50,488 nucleotides of DNA from Bacteroidota bacterium (lineage in GTDB: Bacteria; Bacteroidota; Bacteroidia; NS11-12g; UBA955), in the NCBI GenBank assembly GCA_030834125.1, contig JAURFW010000014.1:1-50488 (forward strand), in the 5' to 3' direction. The translations under genes were made by a program, and so were the position numbers. Shown piece by piece: positions 2,288-23,047 of this stretch (the first letter of the stretch is position 1; each line of letters opens with the position of its first letter). Under the pieces are notes generated by a model. The model was not told where the DNA came from. It ran no database searches and saw nothing but the letters and a program-made list of their open reading frames with translations.

Positions 2288-3388
2288 ATGTCATTACAAT
2301 GTGGTATCGTGGGTTTGCCCAATGTTGGGAAGTCTACTCTTTTTAATGCAGTTTCTAGCGCAAAGGCACAATCTGCAAATTTCCCTTTCTGTACTATTGA
2401 ACCCAATATTGGGACAATAACTGTTCCCGATGATAGACTTACTGCACTTACTGAATTGGTAAGCCCTCAGAATGTCATTCCTACCACCATTGAAATAGTT
2501 GATATTGCAGGTTTAGTAAAAGGAGCATCCAAAGGCGATGGTTTAGGAAATCAATTTTTAGGTAATATACGATCTACACATGCTATTTTACATGTGCTGC
2601 GTTGTTTCGATGATGATAATATTATTCATGTGGATGGTAGTGTCGATCCCATAAGAGATAAAGAAATTATTGATACTGAATTACAGTTAAAAGATTTAGA
2701 AACTCTTGAAAATAGAATTTCTAAAATTGCAAAACAAGCTCGAACTGGGGGTGATAAAGACGCAGTTAAAATTTTAGAAGTATGCGAGCAGTTTAAAGCC
2801 CATTTGTTGCAAGGGAAGAATGCCCGTTCACTCGAAATGGATGCTGAACGCAGAGCTTTAGTTAAAGAACTCACGTTGCTTACGGATAAACCTGTGATGT
2901 ATGTATGTAATGTTGATCCGGGCTCGGCTGTTTCAGGTAATACTTACGTCGATAAAGTTAGGGAAGCAGTAAAAATCGAAGAAGCAGAAATTCTAGTCAT
3001 ATCAGCGGCTATTGAAGCCGAAATTGCAGAACTTGAAAGTTTTGAAGATAGGGAATTGTTTTTGGAGGAATTGGGTCTTACCTCTAGTGGGGTTCAAAAA
3101 CTCATTCAAGGAGCCTATTCTTTACTAAACTACATTACTTATTTTACTGTAGGCGTAAAAGAAGTAAGAGCATGGACAATCACCAAAGGAACCAAAGCAC
3201 CACAAGCAGCTGGAGCAATACATACAGATTTTGAGAAAGGATTTATACGAGCTGAGGTTATCGCTTACAAAGATTATGTTCAATATAAAACTGAATCTGC
3301 GTGTAGAGATGCCGGTAAACTTAGAGTTGAAGGAAAAGAGTATATAGTTGCCGATGGCGACTGCATGCACTTTAGATTCAATGTTTAG
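2288..3388 (+). CDS. ychF: Redox-regulated ribosome-binding ATPase YchF
   Basis: At 366 residues this is the standard length of the YchF/OLA1 branch of Obg-type P-loop proteins. The Walker A motif is GLPNVGKST near the N-terminus and the G3 region is DIAGLVKGASKGDGLGNQFL. The G4 position reads CNVD rather than NKxD, which is the known reason this family prefers ATP to GTP. The C-terminal TGS/ubiquitin-like domain is present, ending with the family-typical ADGDCMHFRFNV. It acts in the cytosol on ribosomes. It starts three bases after the glmM stop. Its stop codon overlaps the stop codon of the convergent gene on the other strand by four bases, with no terminator between them. Confidence 0.95.
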   Translation: MSLQCGIVGLPNVGKSTLFNAVSSAKAQSANFPFCTIEPNIGTITVPDDRLTALTELVSPQNVIPTTIEIVDIAGLVKGASKGDGLGNQFLGNIRSTHAILHVLRCFDDDNIIHVDGSVDPIRDKEIIDTELQLKDLETLENRISKIAKQARTGGDKDAVKILEVCEQFKAHLLQGKNARSLEMDAERRALVKELTLLTDKPVMYVCNVDPGSAVSGNTYVDKVREAVKIEEAEILVISAAIEAEIAELESFEDRELFLEELGLTSSGVQKLIQGAYSLLNYITYFTVGVKEVRAWTITKGTKAPQAAGAIHTDFEKGFIRAEVIAYKDYVQYKTESACRDAGKLRVEGKEYIVADGDCMHFRFNV

Positions 3389-4497
3389 AATACGAAGTTT
3401 AAAGACGCATTGTAAAGTATTCCTCTAGTATTTCTATTTTCTTCATTTATTGGTAAGAAGTACGCCGCTCTAGAATCCAGTAAGATGTGTTTAGTTTTAA
3501 GTAGTTCAATACCTATACTTAAACTTCCTACGGGTACTGATTTCTGCTTGATGTCATTGTATTGGTTAGGTAACATTACGCCAACGGTATAACCGCTATA
3601 CAGATTAAGGAATTTTCTCTTTCCTCTACCAAAATGCCTTGAATAAAAATCCTGACCAAATTGGATTAAGAAAAAGTCATTTTTTGTATTTGATAATACT
3701 GGATCTAACTGTTCCAAAGTAGTTAATGTCGATAAAGGTTTTAATACACCAATTTCAATATAACTTTTACCACGAGTAAACATATATTTTAAGTTAAAAC
3801 CTGCATATTGGTCATGGCTAATTCCTGTCTTTGGATTCTCTATTTGTAGGAATGAATATGAAACACCGGGCATATTTACCCATGACACTTTCTGTTTTCT
3901 GCCATCTGGGGTAGCTACATCATCATGAATTTCCACAGTAACATATATTGTGCTTGATAGTTTCTTGATTTCATCTATGGATTTTCTAATATCTTCTATG
4001 CGGTTTTCAGCATTTCTTATTGTTGTAACATAATTGTTTTCATTATACCTATGGTTTCCAGAGCTAAAACCATTCTTAGGGTAATTTGATTGCGTGTCAT
4101 TTTGGATTCGCAATAAATCTTCTTTATTGTTTTCTATGATTCTTTCTTGTTTAACAATTTCTTCCTCATAGTTTTTAATCGTTTTTTGCAAATTATTGGT
4201 TTCAATATTTGAGCTAAAAATATAACCCCATTCGTTTAAGTTTTGATCTAATACAGACACAAGATTTTCGGGCATTTCAAATTGATATGTGGATGAATTT
4301 AAGTCCATATCTTTTTTAATAAGGACAACACCTTGCTTATTTACAAACTCATCCATTGAGTCTAAGCTTGAATTGTATCTTGCAGAATACAATCTAGCGC
4401 TTTTGTTTGCAGCGTATGAACTTCGGTTGTAATATTGACCGCTAATTGGTAAAGCAATCGAGATTAAAAGAAGAATAGTTATATGCCTGATTTTCAT
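3385..4497 (-). CDS. Secreted protein: DUF4349-like coiled region plus predicted outer membrane barrel
   Basis: The 370-residue product has a signal peptide (residues 1-20, ending near PISGQ). Residues about 48-190 read like a DUF4349 domain: a short alpha/beta stretch (VNKQGVVLIKKDMDL), a P-x-x-L segment, a long heptad-rich coiled coil broken by an Asn/Ser-rich loop, and a closing strand (LSSTIYVTVEI). Residues about 195-370 alternate polar and hydrophobic positions and end in Phe, as small outer membrane beta-barrels do. I infer an envelope protein with a periplasmic coiled coil attached to a barrel. It lies head-to-head with the ECF sigma gene, 87 bases away, so it may share control with it. 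The DUF4349 reading is by pattern only. No exact function is assigned. Confidence 0.6.
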   Translation of the reverse strand: MKIRHITILLLISIALPISGQYYNRSSYAANKSARLYSARYNSSLDSMDEFVNKQGVVLIKKDMDLNSSTYQFEMPENLVSVLDQNLNEWGYIFSSNIETNNLQKTIKNYEEEIVKQERIIENNKEDLLRIQNDTQSNYPKNGFSSGNHRYNENNYVTTIRNAENRIEDIRKSIDEIKKLSSTIYVTVEIHDDVATPDGRKQKVSWVNMPGVSYSFLQIENPKTGISHDQYAGFNLKYMFTRGKSYIEIGVLKPLSTLTTLEQLDPVLSNTKNDFFLIQFGQDFYSRHFGRGKRKFLNLYSGYTVGVMLPNQYNDIKQKSVPVGSLSIGIELLKTKHILLDSRAAYFLPINEENRNTRGILYNASLNFVF

Positions 4498-5143: not shown

Positions 5144-6475
5144 ATGGAGAAAAATAGACCAAATATCGACCAATTGATTCAATCGTCATTCGATGCGTTT
5201 GAACCACAATTGCCAATTGGTATTTGGAATAATATCGAAGATAAGTTAAATCAGAATGACGCATCAAAACGTAAAAAGGTTTTAACATGGTCTTCAGTTG
5301 CTGCAGTTGTTTTCATCGGCTTGTCAGGAATGTTCTACTCAAACATACCTGACAATGCTACGGTGGATCACAAAACTGGAATTAAAATTAGTAATACAGA
5401 ATTAAAGTCAGGTTCTTTCGAAAATAAACTTTCACAATCATTACCAATAGGAAATGGTAATTCAGACCTTGATCTAAACGATGTTGATTTAAATAATTCT
5501 CTTGATAATAAGGATGTTAAAACAACAGGAAAAAAATTGGTGGTGGAAAATAATCGCAATATTACAGAAATAGCTTCTATTAATAAAAACAGCGTCGTTC
5601 CTAATCTATTCGACATAAATCAAGAGCCAATTTTGACTCAGGAAAATTATGAGAATATGAACGAAGCCAATTTTGATTTTCTTAATTCAAAGAAATTAGG
5701 ATTAATAAATACTAAAATTTTACAGTTGCCAGCATCATCCCAAATCCCTCAAAGGCCAACAAAACAGAAACGGTCAATCTGGGCTTTTGAGGTTGGGTAT
5801 GATCAAAATCAAACTGCAATAAATTATGCGGTTAACACCCAACTGTCTAAATACGTTCACAAGAATTTTGTAAATAGAATTAAGGAGGGCGAGTTCGCTC
5901 TTGCGGCTCCTCAACTTCATGCCGCCCTTAGATATCAATTTAACCCGAATTGGTCGGTTGCCATCGGGTTAGGTTTTTCACAAACTAGAATTTCTCAAAG
6001 TTTCAACTTCCAAGATAGCACGCCTGTGAGCATGGCTCAAGGAAACGAAGCAGATATTAACGGAAACTATCCAATTTTTGGATATGTTGGATTAGGTATG
6101 CCAGTTGCTTATAATGGGAATCAATCTATTTCAATGGTTTCAATTCCATTGAGTGTTGGATATCAAAGACCAATTAATCGATCATGGGCATTCAGTTCTG
6201 AGATTTCCATGAGATTTAATAAATTATTAACCACAACTGGAAAAACATTGGATTACCACGATTTGTCTTTAATGGATGTCCCAAATTATAGAAGTCAAAT
6301 ATGGTCAGCCAAGCTTTCTATAGGTGCGGAAAAGCGCGTTTCACTGCGTGATATATGGGGTGTTAGATTAAATACTCAAGGTGCATTAACCCCATTTAAT
6401 TCAGTAAATTCACCGGTTTCTAATAGGGGTTGGTCAATTGGTATGTCGGTTTTTTATCGTTATTCAATTTGGTAA
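5144..6475 (+). CDS. Probable anti-sigma/trans-envelope protein with C-terminal outer membrane barrel
   Basis: The 443-residue product has no cleavable signal peptide. Residues 1-44 are hydrophilic and of the kind found on Bacteroidota anti-sigma-like proteins (DQLIQSSFDAFEPQLPIGIW, then a short helix). A single hydrophobic segment covers about 46-66. An Asn/Asp/Ser-rich low-complexity linker spans about 67-205. Residues about 207-443 look like a beta-barrel of the OmpA/PorT type, ending YRYSIW. The cytosolic N-terminus and the adjacent upstream sigma gene point to sigma-factor control. The barrel would place the other end in the outer membrane, so one polypeptide might span the periplasm. 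The sigma-binding role is inferred from position, not from a conserved zinc anti-sigma motif, which is absent. Confidence 0.65.
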   Translation: MEKNRPNIDQLIQSSFDAFEPQLPIGIWNNIEDKLNQNDASKRKKVLTWSSVAAVVFIGLSGMFYSNIPDNATVDHKTGIKISNTELKSGSFENKLSQSLPIGNGNSDLDLNDVDLNNSLDNKDVKTTGKKLVVENNRNITEIASINKNSVVPNLFDINQEPILTQENYENMNEANFDFLNSKKLGLINTKILQLPASSQIPQRPTKQKRSIWAFEVGYDQNQTAINYAVNTQLSKYVHKNFVNRIKEGEFALAAPQLHAALRYQFNPNWSVAIGLGFSQTRISQSFNFQDSTPVSMAQGNEADINGNYPIFGYVGLGMPVAYNGNQSISMVSIPLSVGYQRPINRSWAFSSEISMRFNKLLTTTGKTLDYHDLSLMDVPNYRSQIWSAKLSIGAEKRVSLRDIWGVRLNTQGALTPFNSVNSPVSNRGWSIGMSVFYRYSIW

Positions 6476-6486
6476 TAATCAAGAAT

Positions 6487-8967
6487 ATGCATAAAAAATC
6501 ATTCATATCGAGTAAATTGCAGATAGTGAAACGAATAATCCTCATTTGGTTTCTTGGTTTAGCGACTTTTCCATTGTTTTCTCAAGTCTTAGAGCCTTTG
6601 GGTACTGGACTTCCAGGAAGAGTTGTTGCTTCATATGCTACGGATGATGAATATTTTGCTCTTTATGATGATGTATCTACTTCTGATACAACAGATTATG
6701 TTTTGGCAAGATGGAATGGTGCGTACTGGTCTTATTGTCCGGGGTTGAAAACTCCAGCACCCATTATTCCTACTGAGGGTAATTACAATTTCCATTCAAT
6801 AGCCTATTTTAATAACACCATTTATGTTGGAGCATATTTGGCAAATGCTTCCAAAGATGCCGAAATTCCAGTTACTCATTTGTATAAGTGGAATGCAAAT
6901 ACCCAAGAATGGGATCCAGAGGTTGGAGTAGTCGATACAAGAAATAATGGTATCATTACAATGGCGGTTTTCGACAATAAACTCATTATTGCTGGAAAAT
7001 TTCAGAGCACCTTAAATGGTAAGAGTGTTCAGAATATTGCCTCATTCGACGGAACGAATTGGGATTATTTAGGAACTAGTAACCTAGATCAGGGTGCCGA
7101 TGGAATAATCAGATCTTTAATGGTTGTTGGTAACAGATTATATATCGGAGGTGATTTTACAACCTTTGCAGGTAAACAAACTGGGAATATTGCATATTAC
7201 ACGGCTGCAAATGGAGGATGGGGTGGAATTGGAAGTCCTTTCATTGGAGAAATTTTAGAATTAGCTTCATGGAGCGGTTCACAAATAGCTGCCTTGGGTA
7301 AAGATTCGAGTGGAAATAAATCAGTACGAGTATTTAATGTTAATTGGAGTTCAAAATTAGATTTTACTAATTTCACTTCGGCAGAGATAAAAACTATTGC
7401 AGGAACTAAATCTTATTTATTGTTGGGTGGGACTTTTGTTAAGGATGGAAACGGTTCTTCTCTGTTGAGATTTGAAAATGATAATCTTGCTTTTACTGGC
7501 AACAGACTTCAAGGCGATTTTAGATTAGGTCAAAGAGGTTCTGGTGCATTTGTTTGGGGTGATTTTAATGAACTTAATACAGATATAAGGTTTTTCTCAA
7601 GCATTATAAGCGAAAGCGGTAATTTAACCGGTGATTTATTTTATGATTTCGATGGCGACTGTCAAAGAGATGAGGGAGAAAAGGGTTTGCCCGCTGAGGT
7701 TTTAAAATTAACAAATAAAACTACAGGAGAGTATTTCTTCACAGTAACAGATGAATTCGGGCATTTTACAGTAGGTCTACCTCAAGGAGATTATACTATA
7801 CAACATAAAAACAAAAGACACTTTTACCATGTTTGTGCGGGTAATTATGCCACACAAATAAGAAATGGTAAATATTCCTATGTAAGCTTAGGTGAGTACA
7901 TGGATCCTCAAACCAAGGACATTGAGGTAAATGTAGAACCAATATATCCTGATGAATTGAAAGCGGGCGATACCATTCAGGCTTTAGTGACTGTTAAAAA
8001 CCATGGGGCGAATACATTGAATAGTGCAACACTTTTGATTTCTCATGCATTACCCCTAGCTGATTTCTACAGTGAACCAGCTGCCGATAATTACGATGGC
8101 ATTGAAGCGACATACTCACTTGTTAATTTAGAACCATTTGAAGTGCGATTTATATTGGTTAGATACAAAATGCCCTTATCTGCTAATTCAAAGGACGAAT
8201 ATAATATTAGAGTTTCAACGGGCAGTTTAATAACTGGTCAAGATGAAACTCAAGAGGATAATATTAATGTGGCATCATTGAAAATAGGTAAGCGAGGAAA
8301 TGGTGGTGTTGTAGAAAAAAACTCTGTATTAGGAAATGAGATAGATCAAAAGATCGCAACATGGAAATATACAATTGATTTTAAGAACACAAGTAGTTCC
8401 AAAGTGAATAAAGTGATTCTAGTTGATACTCTAGCTGGAGACTTACCACTGCAGCGTGTAATAGTAAATTCATTTTATCCTCAAAAAGCACAATTCTTTA
8501 TTCAACAAGGAAGAATTTTAGTTGTGAATTTTGATCCAGCCAATTTAAAAACTTATGAAGCATCACCTTCAAATGCTGTGGGTTGGGTTAAATATCAAGT
8601 AGATTTATACCAAGACTTAGCGCTTCAAACTAAAATAAACAATATAGCTCATATTGATTTTGATAGCAAATGGTGGGGTGTATCTAATGATTGTTGGGTT
8701 ACTGTTGTTGATAAGCAGTCAGCTGTCAGAAAATTAAAACTTCAACCCTTGGACGTTTATCCTAATCCTACGGGCGATTTCCTAAACGTGGAATGGGATA
8801 GAACAGAAACAGGGAGCGAATGGATAATAATAAATTTACAGGGTCAACGATTGATGGAAGGTAAAATTCATAATTCCACTGGTCATTTAAATATTTCTAA
8901 GTTAGGATCTGGATTGTATTTCTTGCAAACACCAACCACTACGACCCGGTTCAGTGTAGTTAAATAA
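6487..8967 (+). CDS. Secreted T9SS type A cargo with beta-propeller-like, SdrD-B-like and DUF7619-like regions
   Basis: The 826-residue product starts at the ATG at 6487; an in-frame upstream start would overlap the previous gene. A signal peptide covers about residues 1-32 (ending PLFSQ). Residues about 35-375 hold repeats of the form GGDFTTFAG and ASFDGTNWDYLG, resembling propeller repeats. Residues about 378-440 match an SdrD B-like or carboxypeptidase-regulatory fold (GDLFYDFDGDCQRDEGEKGL). A DUF11/DUF7619-like domain follows at about 600-700. The last 70 residues form a T9SS type A sorting domain with the signature VYPNPTGDFLNVEW and a closing GSGLYFLQT segment. It is expected at the cell surface or outside. 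It follows the sigma/barrel pair by 11 bases, so it may be part of that regulon. No enzymatic motif is visible. Confidence 0.85.
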   Translation: MHKKSFISSKLQIVKRIILIWFLGLATFPLFSQVLEPLGTGLPGRVVASYATDDEYFALYDDVSTSDTTDYVLARWNGAYWSYCPGLKTPAPIIPTEGNYNFHSIAYFNNTIYVGAYLANASKDAEIPVTHLYKWNANTQEWDPEVGVVDTRNNGIITMAVFDNKLIIAGKFQSTLNGKSVQNIASFDGTNWDYLGTSNLDQGADGIIRSLMVVGNRLYIGGDFTTFAGKQTGNIAYYTAANGGWGGIGSPFIGEILELASWSGSQIAALGKDSSGNKSVRVFNVNWSSKLDFTNFTSAEIKTIAGTKSYLLLGGTFVKDGNGSSLLRFENDNLAFTGNRLQGDFRLGQRGSGAFVWGDFNELNTDIRFFSSIISESGNLTGDLFYDFDGDCQRDEGEKGLPAEVLKLTNKTTGEYFFTVTDEFGHFTVGLPQGDYTIQHKNKRHFYHVCAGNYATQIRNGKYSYVSLGEYMDPQTKDIEVNVEPIYPDELKAGDTIQALVTVKNHGANTLNSATLLISHALPLADFYSEPAADNYDGIEATYSLVNLEPFEVRFILVRYKMPLSANSKDEYNIRVSTGSLITGQDETQEDNINVASLKIGKRGNGGVVEKNSVLGNEIDQKIATWKYTIDFKNTSSSKVNKVILVDTLAGDLPLQRVIVNSFYPQKAQFFIQQGRILVVNFDPANLKTYEASPSNAVGWVKYQVDLYQDLALQTKINNIAHIDFDSKWWGVSNDCWVTVVDKQSAVRKLKLQPLDVYPNPTGDFLNVEWDRTETGSEWIIINLQGQRLMEGKIHNSTGHLNISKLGSGLYFLQTPTTTTRFSVVK

Positions 8968-16674: not shown

Positions 16675-18906
16675 ATGTGTACTTTTTACAATAGGATATT
16701 TAGAGGTTTAGTAAGTTTCATTCTTGTTTTTTATTCAGTAAAACTAAAGAGTCAAACTGATTCAACATCTGCTGCAGATACTATAAAAACAGTTGAAATA
16801 AAGGTTAAAAAGAACCTAATTGAAAACAGGGCTGATGCATTGGTATATAATGCAGATGAGGATTTAACTAGCAAAGGGCAATCTGCGAGTGAATTGCTTG
16901 CAAAAGTACCAATGGTTGATGTAGATATGGATGGAAATGTATCATTGCGTGGAAATAGAAATATTCGGTTTCTAATCAATGGCAGGCCTTCAGGACTACT
17001 TTCAGGAAGCCCTTCAGATGCTCTACGTGCAATGTCAGCTGATGATATTGCTACTGTAGAGGTGATGACAAATCCTACATCGAAGTATGATGCAGAAGGT
17101 AGTGGAGGTATAATAAATATAGTGCTAAAAGAAAAGAAGGTAGAAGGATTAGTTGGAAGTTTAAGTGGCGGTATTGGAACACGAAGTGCACATTTTGGTG
17201 GGAATTTGGCATCTCAAAAAGGAAAAACCACTTATAATTTATCTTTAGGAAGCCATTTTTGGAGAAGTTGGGGAAATTTAGAAACTAAAAGGAATAATAC
17301 AGATGAGAAGGGAATAAGCTACCAATTAATACAGCATTCAGATCAAGTAAATTGGGGTGGCGGCCCTCGAATAACATTGAGTTTGGACCATCAATTTACA
17401 GAGTCTCAATCCTTAGTTCTTAACGCAACAGGAAGATACAGATTACGGAATTCTGTCGATAATTGGTCAACAAATTATGGCGTTATTGATAGTTTAGATT
17501 TCTTATGGCGTCAAGAATCTGATTATTTATCTCAAGGATGGGGTTATGACCTTGGTTTTGATTATAGAATAAAAGGGAAAAAGCCAAAAAGCGAATTTGC
17601 AATTGCCGGCCTATTAACAGACGGAATAAGTGGTGATGGCTATGACGCTCTGCGCTACAGTAAGTCAAATATCCTTTCTTTTCAAGAACATAGTTTGAAC
17701 AATAATAGTAACAAAGAATTTTCACTTCAATTAGACTGGATAAATCCATTGACTAAGAATTTAATGCTTGAAACTGGAGTAAAAACTGTTTTTAGATGGG
17801 TAAAATCCAACTATAATTTTGATAGTTTTGATTTCGCGAAAAAAAAATTTGTACCTAATGAACTATTAAATAATGGCTTTGGTTATTTTCAAAATGTCTA
17901 TGCAGGTTATTCTCAAATCACCTATGAATTTCTAACCAAATATTCTGCTAGGTTGGGAGTTCGTTACGAGGCCACGAAATTTGGAGGAGATATTGAAAAA
18001 GGTGTTTTTGAAAACATAGGAATAAATACTTTTGTTGGTCAGCCTTATTCAAATTGGGTACCGAGTATTTCCTTGTCCAGAGTAATTGGCGCAGGAGGTT
18101 ATGTGCGTTTAAATTATAATATGCGCATCCAAAGGCCCAGTTTAATTTTCTTAAACCCGTATGTCAACTACAGCAACCCAGTTGATATTACGGTTGGAAA
18201 TCCTCTATTAAATCCCGAAGTTTCAGATAATTATGAATTATCGTTTGGTAATTATACTAAGATTGGAGGCTTTGGATTAAATTTTTATCACAAAAGGCTA
18301 AATAATGCAATTGAAACATATAGGTTTATAAATTCCTCAGGAGTATACATTACTACATATTCTAACATCGGTCGAAATGTTCAAAATGGAATGGATTTAA
18401 ATTTAAATTTTAGAGGTAAAGGTTGGATGTTGTTTTTCAATGGAGGTTTAGGGCATGTGAACATTTCAAGCACTGTTGATACAGGTGCTGTTTCGGGTAT
18501 TTCAGCGAGTGGGTGGACATATGTAGTTGGCCTAAGAGGTAATTACTCAATTAATGACGATTGGTTGGTCGAGGGGTTTTCACGTATCAATGCACCTCAA
18601 TTTTCACTCCAAGGGTTTAGTCAAAATTGGATGTTTCATACTATTGGTATAAAAAGAATGTTTAATGAAGGAAAAGGGGGATTAGGACTGGGGCTAGATA
18701 ACCCTTTTACTCCTAGAATTACCCTTAAAACTGAAAATTTAGGGCAATCGTTCGAGTTGTACTCCCAAAGGGTATTAAATATGTGGGGGGTGAGAATAAA
18801 TTTCAATTATTCCTTCGGAGATGTGAAGACAAAAAACACAAATATCAGGAGTATCCGTATTAAAAATGAAGATTTAAAAAATGGTTCTGGAGCAGGTGAA
18901 ATGTAA
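16675..18906 (+). CDS. TonB-dependent receptor-like outer membrane beta-barrel protein
   Basis: This 743-residue outer membrane protein has a signal peptide at about 1-27 (ending KLKSQ), then a plug-like domain at about 40-155 with LAKVPMVDVDMDGNVSLRG, FLINGRP and KYDAEGSGGIINIVLKE. A large beta-barrel runs to the C-terminus. The layout fits the outer membrane beta-barrel family often annotated as PF14905, which lacks the carboxypeptidase-like N-terminal extension of SusC. The TonB box is not obvious; the stretch KTVEIKVKK may serve. The ligand is unknown. It begins one base after the ABC permease stop, so the pair are almost certainly co-expressed and could form an export or import route across both membranes. 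Confidence 0.82.
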   Translation: MCTFYNRIFRGLVSFILVFYSVKLKSQTDSTSAADTIKTVEIKVKKNLIENRADALVYNADEDLTSKGQSASELLAKVPMVDVDMDGNVSLRGNRNIRFLINGRPSGLLSGSPSDALRAMSADDIATVEVMTNPTSKYDAEGSGGIINIVLKEKKVEGLVGSLSGGIGTRSAHFGGNLASQKGKTTYNLSLGSHFWRSWGNLETKRNNTDEKGISYQLIQHSDQVNWGGGPRITLSLDHQFTESQSLVLNATGRYRLRNSVDNWSTNYGVIDSLDFLWRQESDYLSQGWGYDLGFDYRIKGKKPKSEFAIAGLLTDGISGDGYDALRYSKSNILSFQEHSLNNNSNKEFSLQLDWINPLTKNLMLETGVKTVFRWVKSNYNFDSFDFAKKKFVPNELLNNGFGYFQNVYAGYSQITYEFLTKYSARLGVRYEATKFGGDIEKGVFENIGINTFVGQPYSNWVPSISLSRVIGAGGYVRLNYNMRIQRPSLIFLNPYVNYSNPVDITVGNPLLNPEVSDNYELSFGNYTKIGGFGLNFYHKRLNNAIETYRFINSSGVYITTYSNIGRNVQNGMDLNLNFRGKGWMLFFNGGLGHVNISSTVDTGAVSGISASGWTYVVGLRGNYSINDDWLVEGFSRINAPQFSLQGFSQNWMFHTIGIKRMFNEGKGGLGLGLDNPFTPRITLKTENLGQSFELYSQRVLNMWGVRINFNYSFGDVKTKNTNIRSIRIKNEDLKNGSGAGEM

Positions 18907-18910
18907 CCAC

Positions 18911-18941
18911 TTTTTGAATTGATGTTAATTACCTAATTTTG
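18911..18941 (+). promoter_or_regulatory. Promoter of the DUF3127 gene
   Basis: TTTTTG at 18911-18916, a 17-base spacer and TAATTTTG at 18934-18941 give the best -33/-7 pair in the window. The ATG follows four bases after the -7 box, so the transcript should start at or next to the start codon. Confidence 0.6.
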
Positions 18942-18945
18942 TTTT

Positions 18946-19359
18946 ATGGATTTATCAGGTAAAGTTATACAAATACTACCATTACAAAACGGAGAAGGAC
19001 GCAACGGCGCTTGGAAAAAGCAAGAATATATTATTGAAACTCAAGGACAATACCCCAAAAAGGTATGCTTTTCAATATGGGGTGATAAGATCACTGAATT
19101 CAATATTCAAGAAAATGAATTTATTACAATCGGTATGGATATTGAAAGCCGAGAATATAACAGCCGATGGTATACAGATATCAAAGCTTGGAAAGTTGAT
19201 AGACCCGGAACTTCGGGAATGGCAGCACCCGCTTCTCAAAATTCAAACAGTTTAAATGCAAGCTCAGCAGATGATCCATTTGAATCAACTCCTACAGTAG
19301 ATGATCCATTTGCTTCGGGAACTGACTCATCAAGTCCGGATGATGACTTGCCGTTTTAA
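18946..19359 (+). CDS. DUF3127 protein (OB-fold-like) with SSB-type acidic C-terminal tip
   Basis: This 137-residue protein fits the Bacteroidota DUF3127 family. Residues 1-88 hold the conserved segments ETQGQYPKKVCFSIWGDKI and ESREYNSRWYTDIKAWKVD, with strand spacing suggestive of an OB-fold. Residues about 90-137 are a disordered Ser/Ala/Asp-rich linker with two copies of DDPF, ending in DDDLPF. That ending closely resembles the DDDIPF tip of bacterial single-stranded DNA-binding protein, which docks replication and repair partners. I infer a cytosolic nucleic-acid-binding protein that recruits SSB-interacting partners. It is monocistronic by spacing, with its own promoter. The family assignment is good; the function is inference. 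Confidence 0.85.
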   Translation: MDLSGKVIQILPLQNGEGRNGAWKKQEYIIETQGQYPKKVCFSIWGDKITEFNIQENEFITIGMDIESREYNSRWYTDIKAWKVDRPGTSGMAAPASQNSNSLNASSADDPFESTPTVDDPFASGTDSSSPDDDLPF

Positions 19360-19441: not shown

Positions 19442-22400
19442 ATGTTGAATATAAAGAAATACCTTGTTGTTTTAATGCTTATTACATCAGGGTTTGCTGT
19501 TGCTCAAACTACATATTACGTAGATGGAGTAAATGGTGATGATGTAAATAACAGTGGTGCAAGTGGTTCACCATTTAAAACCATTGGAAAGGCAATGAAC
19601 TCTGTTGCTTCTGGTGATATTATTGAAGTAGAGGGCGGTGCTTATACAGAATCTGTAGATGTTACTGAAAATGTAACGATAAGCGCAGTTACTGCTGGAT
19701 TAACAGTAGATAAGTTGAGGCTTTCAAGCGGAAAAAACTTAACTATTGGGTCTACATCTGAAGTTATTACAGTAAAAGATAGTTTGTTACTAAATTATGG
19801 TTTAGTTAATGTTAATTCATACAACCGTCTACATACATCGGCTACGGCAGAAGTGGCCGGTGGTAATGACACTAGTTTTATTGTCAATGGATATACCATT
19901 CATCACGTTGGAAACACTTCCAAAACCTACACCTGGCATATTGGGCATACAACAGGTGATTATCGCCCTATAACTTTAAGTAGTTTTAGTACATCTAAAA
20001 CCACAGATCAATATTTTTATGCGCGGTGTATAAACGGAGGCCCCTCGTTTAGTGTATCGCTGCCAACCAATACTAAAAATATTTCTAGTGTCAATCATTG
20101 GGAAGTAGGCGCTCAGGAAGCTGCCGGCGTAACAAACGCTTATACATTAACTTTTGATTACGATTCAGCTACCAATGATGATGGAGTATGGGATGCTCCC
20201 AATCTTCAGCTTTTAAATACTGACGGTCTCGCTGCTTGGGTTTTAAAAACTCAAGGTGGAACAAATGCAAGAAAGGGTTCAATTTCAGCAACTGCGACCA
20301 ATACACTTGGTTATTTTATTTTAGGAAATAAAAAAGGTGGAGCTACATTTTTAGGAGGGGCCAACAACTTAGGTAGCGCCGATCCATTTGTGAGTTTTGA
20401 ATATAATGCTGCTGGTCTGTGCGAAGGCGATACCATATTCTTTAATAATCTCACGACGAATCGCTCAGGGGCTACGTTTACATGGATTTTTGGTGACGAG
20501 TCAGAAACAAATCCAAAATATAAGGGGATTACTTATCCTAATGCTTCGGCTGAACACCCATATCACATTTATAATAAGGCAGGTAGCTATACGGTGAGTC
20601 TCCAAGTGCAAAATGCGACCAACAATCCAGATGTGGGGTACATGGCATTTACCATTGGTATTTTACCAAGGCTTCCAGGTTATAAATCTGTTGAAGTATA
20701 CAGATATCCATATAATGGCCTTGATACTTTTGACGATCTAACCATTTGTGATGGTGAGAGATTTTGGGCCGTGGATAATTATGACGCTACATTTCAATGG
20801 AATCCTAATGGTGATGTAGTTACAAAAACCGTTTATGTTATTCAGGGATTAACACCGGAACCAACATTGCCGGTCATGAATCCTATACCAAGTAATGATA
20901 CATTTTTTAATACAATTAATGGACCAGGAAATTATAAAGTTGTTGTTACTCGCACAACTAATAAAGGCTGTGTAGCTGAAGAAACTCAAGATTTAATCAT
21001 TTATGCTCGTCCTGCGCCAGTTATTGATGCATTGGATAAATGTGAAACTCCCCCCAACACTACCTTATTTGTAACAAATAGTACAACTGATCCTTCACCA
21101 ACGAATACTATTAAACAATGGTCATGGGAATATGAGGGTACTTTTGTATTGAATGAGAAAGTAAACAAAAGTCATATTTTTCAAAATGCACACAAAGGAA
21201 TAAATCAAGTTAAATTGATAGTAGAAACAAAAGTAGGTTGTATAGATTCTATTACTAAAGACGTGGAAATATTCCCTAAACCCAAAATAGATATGGACCT
21301 AGATTATTTCTGTGAAGGCCAAACCTTAAGTGCAGATGCTTCTAGTTCAAGTATTACTGGTTCAAGCAATATTGATATGTATATCTGGAATTTTGATTTT
21401 GGTAAACCAAATCCACAATATGACTCTAATGCGGTTACAAATTATCAATATCCAGGACCTGGTTTATACAGAATTCAGTTAAGGTTGGTATCAGATAAAA
21501 TGTGTTTGAGTGATTCTGTTCAACAGATAAGAATTCATCCCAAACCAACTCCTGACTTTGATGTAAAAGAGGTATGTTTCGGAGACTCAACCGAATTGCG
21601 AAGACTGATTCAAACATACCCAAATGATGATAGTATGACGTATTATTGGTATTTAGATTACCAATTTATAAAGGATGATACAGCATTCAAATATTTATTG
21701 CCAAATCCGGGGTCATATCAATTGAAAATGGAAGGTATTTCTGATGCTGGTTGTACAGATTCTATCATCAAAACCATTAAATCTTATTATGTTCCTAATG
21801 CATCATTTATTTTAGACACAATGGTGACAGGAAATGATTCAATTCAATGTTTTAATGGTAATAATTTTGTGTTCGATTATGATTTGGGAATAGATCCATA
21901 CGATACACTCGATATTTCAAAATGGGTTTGGGGGGATACTATGATTGAATCTCCAATAGTTGGTAATAATCATTCTTACACAACATTAGATACCTTTGAA
22001 ATATTACTATTTGTGCAAAATATTAATGGTTGCGCTGATAGTTCTTCATTAACCGTTATAACGGTGCCATCTCCCACAGCAGGATTTGATTGGAACGGAT
22101 TATGTGTTCCAGACACTGTTAAATTCTTTGATACAAGTTCAGTTTCTGTAAATCCAATTACAAGTAGATTCTGGGATTTTGGAAATGGAGAAGCAGATAC
22201 GAACATTACAACTACTCAAACATTCTACTCCAATTCAGGACCATATTCTGTAAAATATACAATTGAAAGCGATAATGGCTGTCGCGATTCAATAACTAAA
22301 TCAATTGATACGCTTATAGACATTCCGGTTGCAAATTGGCAATTAATTAATGGAAGTATGCCACTATGTAAAGGTGATAGTGCAACATTCCAAATTAACG

Positions 22401-23047
22401 GAGGCGACTCTGCAGTATGGTTAATTGATTTGGATACAAATAGATCTAAAGCTTTCTCAGTTACCGGAGTGTATAAATTTGAAGTGATTAACGGAGGACG
22501 TTGTAAATCAACTGATAGCGTGCAAGTATTTGCCTATACAGCTGCTGATATTAAAGCATACAGCGATACGGTCATTTACAGAGGACGTAGAGCAGAATTT
22601 AGATTAGTAAAGGCTTCGTCAAACATAAAATGGTCTCCCTCAGAATTTCTAGAAGATAGTACAAGTACTTATGTTACCACGAAACAACTTATTGATTCAA
22701 TGAGGTTCTATGTTACTGCATTGGATTCAAATGGTTGTGAGGATATGGATTCGGTAACTGTATTAATTATTGATCCGCCATTAGTTAAAATTCCGAATAT
22801 AATTACACCAAATGGAGATAATGAAAATCAAACATGGAACCTAATAGATATTCCGGATTTATTCCTATACGACATAGTGATTTCTGATCGTCAAGGAAGA
22901 CGAGTATATGAAAGTACGGATTATAAAAATGATTGGGCAGCTAGAGATATGAATGGATTAGAGTTACCAAATGGTGTATATTTCTACTACATGAAAAACA
23001 GACAAACTAACGAAATTTACAGAGGTTACATTCAAGTGATAAGATAA
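19442..23047 (+). CDS. Large secreted protein: beta-helix-like N-terminus, PKD domains, T9SS type B sorting domain
   Basis: The 1201-residue product has a signal peptide at 1-21 (ending FAVAQ). Residues about 22-130 resemble a DUF1565/right-handed beta-helix start (YYVDGVNGDDVNNSG, GSPFKTIGKAMNSV). Several PKD-like domains follow at about 310-1000, recognisable by strings such as FTWIFGDESETNP, WNFDFG and FWDFGNGEAD and by repeated Cys-Asp-Ser ladders. The last 85 residues form a gliding-motility-associated C-terminal domain (CHU_C type, T9SS type B): NIITPNGDNENQTWNL and GVYFYYMK. It should be exported by T9SS and may be a surface adhesin like SprB-family proteins. A PorP/SprF gene follows after one base, which is the known partner arrangement for type B cargos. 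No catalytic motif is evident. Confidence 0.88.
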   Translation: MLNIKKYLVVLMLITSGFAVAQTTYYVDGVNGDDVNNSGASGSPFKTIGKAMNSVASGDIIEVEGGAYTESVDVTENVTISAVTAGLTVDKLRLSSGKNLTIGSTSEVITVKDSLLLNYGLVNVNSYNRLHTSATAEVAGGNDTSFIVNGYTIHHVGNTSKTYTWHIGHTTGDYRPITLSSFSTSKTTDQYFYARCINGGPSFSVSLPTNTKNISSVNHWEVGAQEAAGVTNAYTLTFDYDSATNDDGVWDAPNLQLLNTDGLAAWVLKTQGGTNARKGSISATATNTLGYFILGNKKGGATFLGGANNLGSADPFVSFEYNAAGLCEGDTIFFNNLTTNRSGATFTWIFGDESETNPKYKGITYPNASAEHPYHIYNKAGSYTVSLQVQNATNNPDVGYMAFTIGILPRLPGYKSVEVYRYPYNGLDTFDDLTICDGERFWAVDNYDATFQWNPNGDVVTKTVYVIQGLTPEPTLPVMNPIPSNDTFFNTINGPGNYKVVVTRTTNKGCVAEETQDLIIYARPAPVIDALDKCETPPNTTLFVTNSTTDPSPTNTIKQWSWEYEGTFVLNEKVNKSHIFQNAHKGINQVKLIVETKVGCIDSITKDVEIFPKPKIDMDLDYFCEGQTLSADASSSSITGSSNIDMYIWNFDFGKPNPQYDSNAVTNYQYPGPGLYRIQLRLVSDKMCLSDSVQQIRIHPKPTPDFDVKEVCFGDSTELRRLIQTYPNDDSMTYYWYLDYQFIKDDTAFKYLLPNPGSYQLKMEGISDAGCTDSIIKTIKSYYVPNASFILDTMVTGNDSIQCFNGNNFVFDYDLGIDPYDTLDISKWVWGDTMIESPIVGNNHSYTTLDTFEILLFVQNINGCADSSSLTVITVPSPTAGFDWNGLCVPDTVKFFDTSSVSVNPITSRFWDFGNGEADTNITTTQTFYSNSGPYSVKYTIESDNGCRDSITKSIDTLIDIPVANWQLINGSMPLCKGDSATFQINGGDSAVWLIDLDTNRSKAFSVTGVYKFEVINGGRCKSTDSVQVFAYTAADIKAYSDTVIYRGRRAEFRLVKASSNIKWSPSEFLEDSTSTYVTTKQLIDSMRFYVTALDSNGCEDMDSVTVLIIDPPLVKIPNIITPNGDNENQTWNLIDIPDLFLYDIVISDRQGRRVYESTDYKNDWAARDMNGLELPNGVYFYYMKNRQTNEIYRGYIQVIR

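Follow-up and report, generated by a model that had tools for sequence, protein, structure and literature searches.

The window analysed here, a stretch of 50,488 nucleotides of bacterial DNA, carries an open reading frame with an ATG start whose product ends in SSSPDDDLPF (Table 1). The earlier note had described it as a DUF3127 protein with an SSB-type DDDLPF end, and this is borne out by the ORF, its C-terminus and a match to the Pfam model of DUF3127 (PF11325; E 2.2e-33, 114.7 bits against a cut-off of 27). This is the only Pfam match of the protein, with none to the canonical SSB family PF00436, and a search of NCBIfam also gave no match. Over its full length the product is matched by a phage profile, PHROG 4932, whose label is 'single strand DNA binding protein' (7.1e-20, residues 1-137, profile positions 1-117 of 117). 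Immediately upstream of the ATG, at 18911-18941, lies TTTTTG followed after 17 nt by TAATTTTG, an arrangement which we take to be similar to the Bacteroidota promoter pattern and which, if used, would yield a nearly leaderless mRNA. A weak terminator-like hairpin at 19331-19350 overlaps the codons of the tip. The products of the neighbouring genes (16675-18906 and 19442-23047) resemble an outer membrane protein of TonB/OMP type and a large protein of PKD type; a near relative has such a pair, in which the PKD protein carries the CHU_C domain of type IX secretion.

Table 1. Features of the DUF3127 gene, in window coordinates
Feature	Position	Strand	Basis or remark
Coding sequence, DUF3127 protein	18946..19359	+	137 aa, TAA stop
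OB-fold domain (predicted), residues 2-85	18949..19200	+	Pfam residues 3-84; AlphaFold2 model; SSB/PriB fold matches
Disordered linker (predicted), residues 86-131	19201..19338	+	pLDDT 51-55 in blocks 91-130; linker composition, 79 relatives
Internal DDPF motif 1, residues 109-112	19270..19281	+	Sequence; kept at genus level
Internal DDPF motif 2, residues 119-122	19300..19311	+	Sequence; kept at genus level
SSB-type acidic tip DDDLPF, residues 132-137	19339..19356	+	Genome pattern count; conservation surveys

An AlphaFold2 model of the protein, built from 127 sequences, shows a disordered tail and, for residues 1-80, a pLDDT of about 97. The order of the elements in its globular part (b1, b1', b2, b3, a short helix, b4 and b5; pLDDT about 96-97) allows the domain to be predicted with confidence to be an OB barrel, and the low pLDDT of the following blocks agrees with the SSB-like disordered linker that had been postulated ahead of the tip. 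A Foldseek search with the model recovered a list headed by SSBs and PriBs, the best hit being the SSB domain 3koj (5.9e-5). Structural superposition of the predicted model with VIA-align gave Z 11.4 with Rim1 (rmsd 2.1 over 84), Z 11.0 with the Salinibacter SSB (rmsd 1.9 over 84) and Z 10.8 with PriB 3klw (rmsd 2.2 over 82), values that are tied, Z differences under 1 counting as ties; MCM OB domains also score 10.4. Profile-profile comparison with hhalign aligned DUF3127 with canonical SSB profiles at a probability of 86.7 (E 4.3e-6, 49 columns), and the PF00436 model recognises one phage member of DUF3127, that of Cellulophaga phage phi10:1, weakly (E 1.8e-4, 17.2 bits, below its cut-off of 26). 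Plain sequence searches of the PDB recovered no SSB, either with a single DUF3127 protein (one match, E 1.1) or with the family profile (best match Cmr4, E 1.3); the homology thus rests on the fold and on profile-profile comparison.

Several aromatic residues of the domain are nearly invariant (W23, W75 and Y76 at 100%, Y71 and W82 at 99%, W45 at 92%), as are two basic ones (R69 and R74, both 98%), in a domain whose net charge is about -1, i.e. not basic. The base-stacking residues of the E. coli SSB are given as W40, W54, F60 and W88 in the accessible text of PMC3991886. Two of these four positions, F60 and W88, are occupied by W45 and Y71 in the hhalign alignment, with the numbering transferred in this analysis.

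The short C-terminal tip was examined both for chance occurrence and for conservation. When all 2,296,609 bases of the organism's own genome are scanned with a degenerate nucleotide pattern that encodes D-[DE]-hydrophobic-P-F-stop (GAYGANNTNCCNTTYTRR), there are two matches, namely the DUF3127 gene and one canonical SSB; the backward-read control of this pattern has one match in the same bases. The tip, whose lack of conservation in orthologues would, according to the earlier note, have refuted the suggestion, proved to be conserved: PF ends were found in 79 of 80 DUF3127 ORFs from named genomes (the best 80 of 588 confirmed loci), in all 59 read from phylum-sample loci, window included, and in all 20 of a set of further regions, four of them from genomes already counted. 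As the named-genome loci are the best-scoring ones and the phylum-sample DNA comes from the best-scoring genomes only, the most divergent DUF3127 members are under-sampled in these counts. A stricter end, [DE].?[LIVM]PF, is present in 77 of the same 80 ORFs (again the best 80 of 588 loci), and in 1 of the 668 remaining ORFs (100 aa or longer) that those loci contain. This single control ORF is itself a PF00436 SSB, so that in this sample the tip all but marks out SSB-type proteins. The genome-wide count, the 668-ORF control and the conservation survey together led us to reject a chance resemblance of the tip to that of SSB. When 79 unique proteins are right-aligned, the last five positions carry 3.43, 2.47, 3.56, 4.32 and 4.32 bits, whereas positions -6 to -32, where the linker varies freely among relatives, carry about 0.7-1.4. 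Apart from the OB domain, no part of DUF3127 is better conserved than the tip. The sole non-PF case (L122) has a premature in-frame stop inside the domain, and the same frame downstream still spells a DDDDIPF end. This copy (6001-6360 of its locus) is one of two in Alphaproteobacterium 46_93_T64, the other being L078.

The two DDPF repeats to which the earlier note had drawn attention are indeed present in the linker; they are mainly limited to the genus, since at least one DPF occurs in all ten same-genus orthologues fetched and a [DEN]PF motif within the linker in only 11 of the 79 unique relatives. The tip itself follows the local style of SSB ends: the canonical SSBs decoded from the Bacteroidota phylum mostly end in DDLPF or DDDLPF. 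In the accessible text of PMC3991886 a Flavobacterium SSB is listed with DLPF and SSBs of Psychrobacter with DIPF. Seven alphaproteobacterial genomes have isoleucine at position -3 in both DUF3127 and the main canonical SSB, and these are the only DUF3127 proteins with isoleucine there among the 79. The seven form one clade in the OB-domain tree (support 90/87), so the change from L to I in Alphaproteobacteria amounts to one event and is suggestive at most; the apparent correlated switch of tails (7/7) was accordingly discounted.

The organism's genome of 2.30 Mb has one DUF3127 gene and also encodes two canonical SSBs (L031, L032; C65, C14). The ORF of one of these ends in FGSHE and has no tip; the other ends in TDDEVPF and has almost no linker. 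Among these three proteins, DUF3127 hence has the longest tail that ends in a tip, and it is the third SSB-type protein and the second with a tip. The suggestion of a 'second SSB-like hub', made from the bare sequence, is well supported by sequence and predicted fold, with the ordinal corrected to third among the SSB-type proteins. PriA and RecQ, candidate partners of the tip, are likewise encoded in this genome. DUF3127 was found in 36 of 38 relatives searched and in 222 of 395 genomes of a phylum sample; about 44% of the latter are without it, indicating that it is dispensable there. Among the same-class genomes listed in the phylum sample 95 have the gene and 2 do not, with 153 matchless genomes being unlisted and, as the order of the list suggests, probably not of this class.

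The bacterial neighbourhoods of DUF3127 are diverse. In Bacteroides finegoldii (a record labelled as a plasmid that has chromosomal-type genes) DUF3127 is divergent from dnaN, a 3'-5' exonuclease gene, coaBC and recN, and the same block stands divergent to it in Phocaeicola massiliensis and Prevotella sp. F0039. No such block adjoins DUF3127 in the 80 genome loci (the best 80 of 588), in the 20 further regions, in locus L001 or in the window. A conserved operon was looked for and rejected, the block being seen in Bacteroides, Phocaeicola and Prevotella and lacking in the window and the 101 other loci searched. Nine hand-picked bacterial neighbours examined with Pfam included none related to repair. 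A further copy occurs near tra genes on a Runella conjugative plasmid (L289, 5001-5570), where a hydrophobic, cysteine-containing, lipoprotein-like tail takes the place of linker and tip.

In phages the surroundings are more telling. A tblastn search of GenBank phages recovered at least 39 records with DUF3127, the named bacterial hosts among the matches listed being Bacteroidota, and several RefSeq phage records already name the protein SSB. Around 30 representative tip-bearing viral loci, 141 neighbouring ORFs were surveyed; they include RecE-like exonucleases, helicases, Erf annealing proteins, replication initiators, primosomal proteins and NinB/Orf mediators, as well as terminases and structural proteins. 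Among named phages, DUF3127 likewise lies near Erf in phage 11b, near an exonuclease, NinG and a primase/helicase in phi10:1, near a primase/helicase and NinG in morran9-1, near RecT in phi46:3, and near Erf, exonuclease VIII, a replication initiation gene and a primase/helicase in Panino. No clear replication or recombination module was seen in the stretch examined of PV4-TP1, Dulem virus 40 and PF672P1. In Maribacter phage Panino (L292, 5969-6309) the annotation splits DUF3127 into two ORFs that overlap but lie in different frames; the second ends in GDDLPF. PF00436 scored above its cut-off in none of 36 virus contigs, which are possibly fragments, and in none of 8 phage records. Such surroundings, combined with a missing canonical SSB, are what one would expect for a phage SSB, as judged from gene content.

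The tail is more variable in viruses. Among 70 viral loci, some of which (from IMG/VR) may be bacterial, 46 have the strict tip and 47 a PF end, 19 encode a tailless, domain-only form of 84-89 aa, and 4 end differently; clustering at 80% identity yields 30 groups with the tip and 6 without. The tailless forms also adjoin exonuclease and helicase genes. Near two of them a helicase-like protein (phrog_5482; L193, ~3265-4194, and L205, ~5945-6910) ends in NNNDIIPF, which reads as if an SSB-type tip had moved to another protein. Tailless-DUF3127 phages also encode a protein of 792 aa whose N-terminal part is primase/helicase-like and which ends in KTDIPF or KTEVPF (L189, 7560-9938; also L195, L202 and L209).

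The fold, the profile homology, the phage context and the PHROG assignment all point to an SSB-type protein. Taken with the sequence data, they make it probable that DUF3127 is a divergent and compact OB protein of the SSB/PriB branch that acts as an accessory SSB-type hub. Its OB domain would bind ssDNA at forks, gaps or restart sites by means of the conserved aromatic and basic residues, as suggested by the fold, the homology and the conservation of these residues. The flexible acidic linker would then carry DDDLPF to PriA, RecQ, RecO and other partners, whose pockets, going by the identity and conservation of the tip, would be those used by the host's canonical SSB. Enzymes would thereby be recruited or handed over alongside canonical SSB, with repair, recombination or replication restart as the likeliest settings. 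The phages of Bacteroidota, in turn, probably use DUF3127 as their SSB, in view of its module context and of the lack of another SSB.

Among the other functions that might be considered for such a protein, a specialised PriB-like factor of the primosome or of restart is the strongest contender, even if an unlikely one. Such a factor would bind ssDNA at stalled forks through its OB domain and recruit PriA through its tip, making it a natural counterpart of the PriB-SSBc chimera, an artificial construct which, in the accessible text of PMC8509808, surpassed PriB in ssDNA binding and had a stimulating effect on PriA. The place of PriB among the top fold matches, the presence of PriA in the genome and the primosomal proteins among the phage neighbours all count in favour of this role. 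However, PriB has no SSB-type tail, SSBs equal it in fold rank, and in phages DUF3127 seems to serve as the only SSB.

Alternatively, the protein could act on canonical SSB itself as a competitor or regulator, its tip filling the SSB-binding pockets and thereby tuning the traffic of partners, while the protein itself would bind ssDNA weakly if at all. The host SSB style of the tip and the overall non-basic OB domain would fit such a function; yet the strong conservation of the aromatic and basic residues of that domain and the phage module context suggest that it works on nucleic acid, and we consider a pure competitor quite improbable. OB folds bind many ligands, and this general versatility, along with the lack of the dnaN/recN block beside DUF3127 in most genomes, might be taken to favour a cold-shock-like RNA-binding protein that borrows SSB partners incidentally. 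With SSBs and PriBs heading the fold matches, and with the phage and dnaN contexts of the family, we give this last proposal hardly any credence. An accessory SSB-type hub remains the preferred reading.

A more far-reaching version of the accessory-hub reading is also conceivable, although we hold it to be rather doubtful. Here the Bacteroidia would possess a two-hub system, in which canonical SSB and a near-universal, functionally distinct DUF3127, in effect a naturally occurring 'PriB with an SSB tail', operate on the same pockets; phages would have taken DUF3127 as their sole SSB, and some of them would have shed its tip and placed a similar one on a helicase. In any event, a gene found in nearly every sampled same-class genome and labelled as of unknown function gains a testable role in DNA maintenance. 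If true, models of SSB traffic with one tip-bearing hub would fail for these bacteria, and a family left unnamed by annotation pipelines could be named.

A search of the literature, in which subscription papers and preprints were thinly covered, recovered no description of the near-universal chromosomal DUF3127 or of its tip; none was found on PF11325, and none of the DDLPF literature, judged by titles, dealt with DUF3127. As phage DUF3127 is already annotated as SSB and the chromosomal form and its tip are apparently undescribed, the novelty of these observations is moderate. A precedent is offered by ORF6 of phage Enc34 (DUF2815), a phage DUF that was recognised as an SSB with an OB fold and a C-terminus devoid of structure; its OB fold is of the T7 gp2.5 type, and it belongs to another family than DUF3127 (PMC5686142, accessible text). 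Both an SSB domain and DUF3127 have been noted in one phage SSB, gp25 of Pantoea phage AAS23, but this protein was identified by its similarity to the E. coli SSB, and the accessible text of that report mentions neither the chromosomal DUF3127 nor the tip (PMC8004638).

The phage SSBs of PHROG 4932 (e.g. those of phages 11b, phi10:1, PV4-TP1 and morran9-1) share the domain, the linker and the tip with the protein of the window, the name of this group being an annotation-level label; in contrast to them, the window gene is chromosomal, accompanied by two canonical SSBs in its genome and situated outside a replication module. Canonical SSBs of the PF00436 family are similar in their disordered acidic linker, in their acidic-hydrophobic-P-F tip and, by the predicted model, in the SSB-type OB fold, but the PF00436 model does not match DUF3127, whose domain spans 85 model positions as against 104. 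PriB is comparable as a small, single OB domain that ranks in the top tier of fold matches, whereas natural PriB is devoid of an SSB tail and the window protein has one of 51 residues with a conserved tip. DUF3127 also lies outside the rpsF-priB-rpsR setting described for PriB in the accessible text of PMC8509808, and in combining its domain with such a tail it is reminiscent of the artificial PriB-SSBc chimera of the same study.
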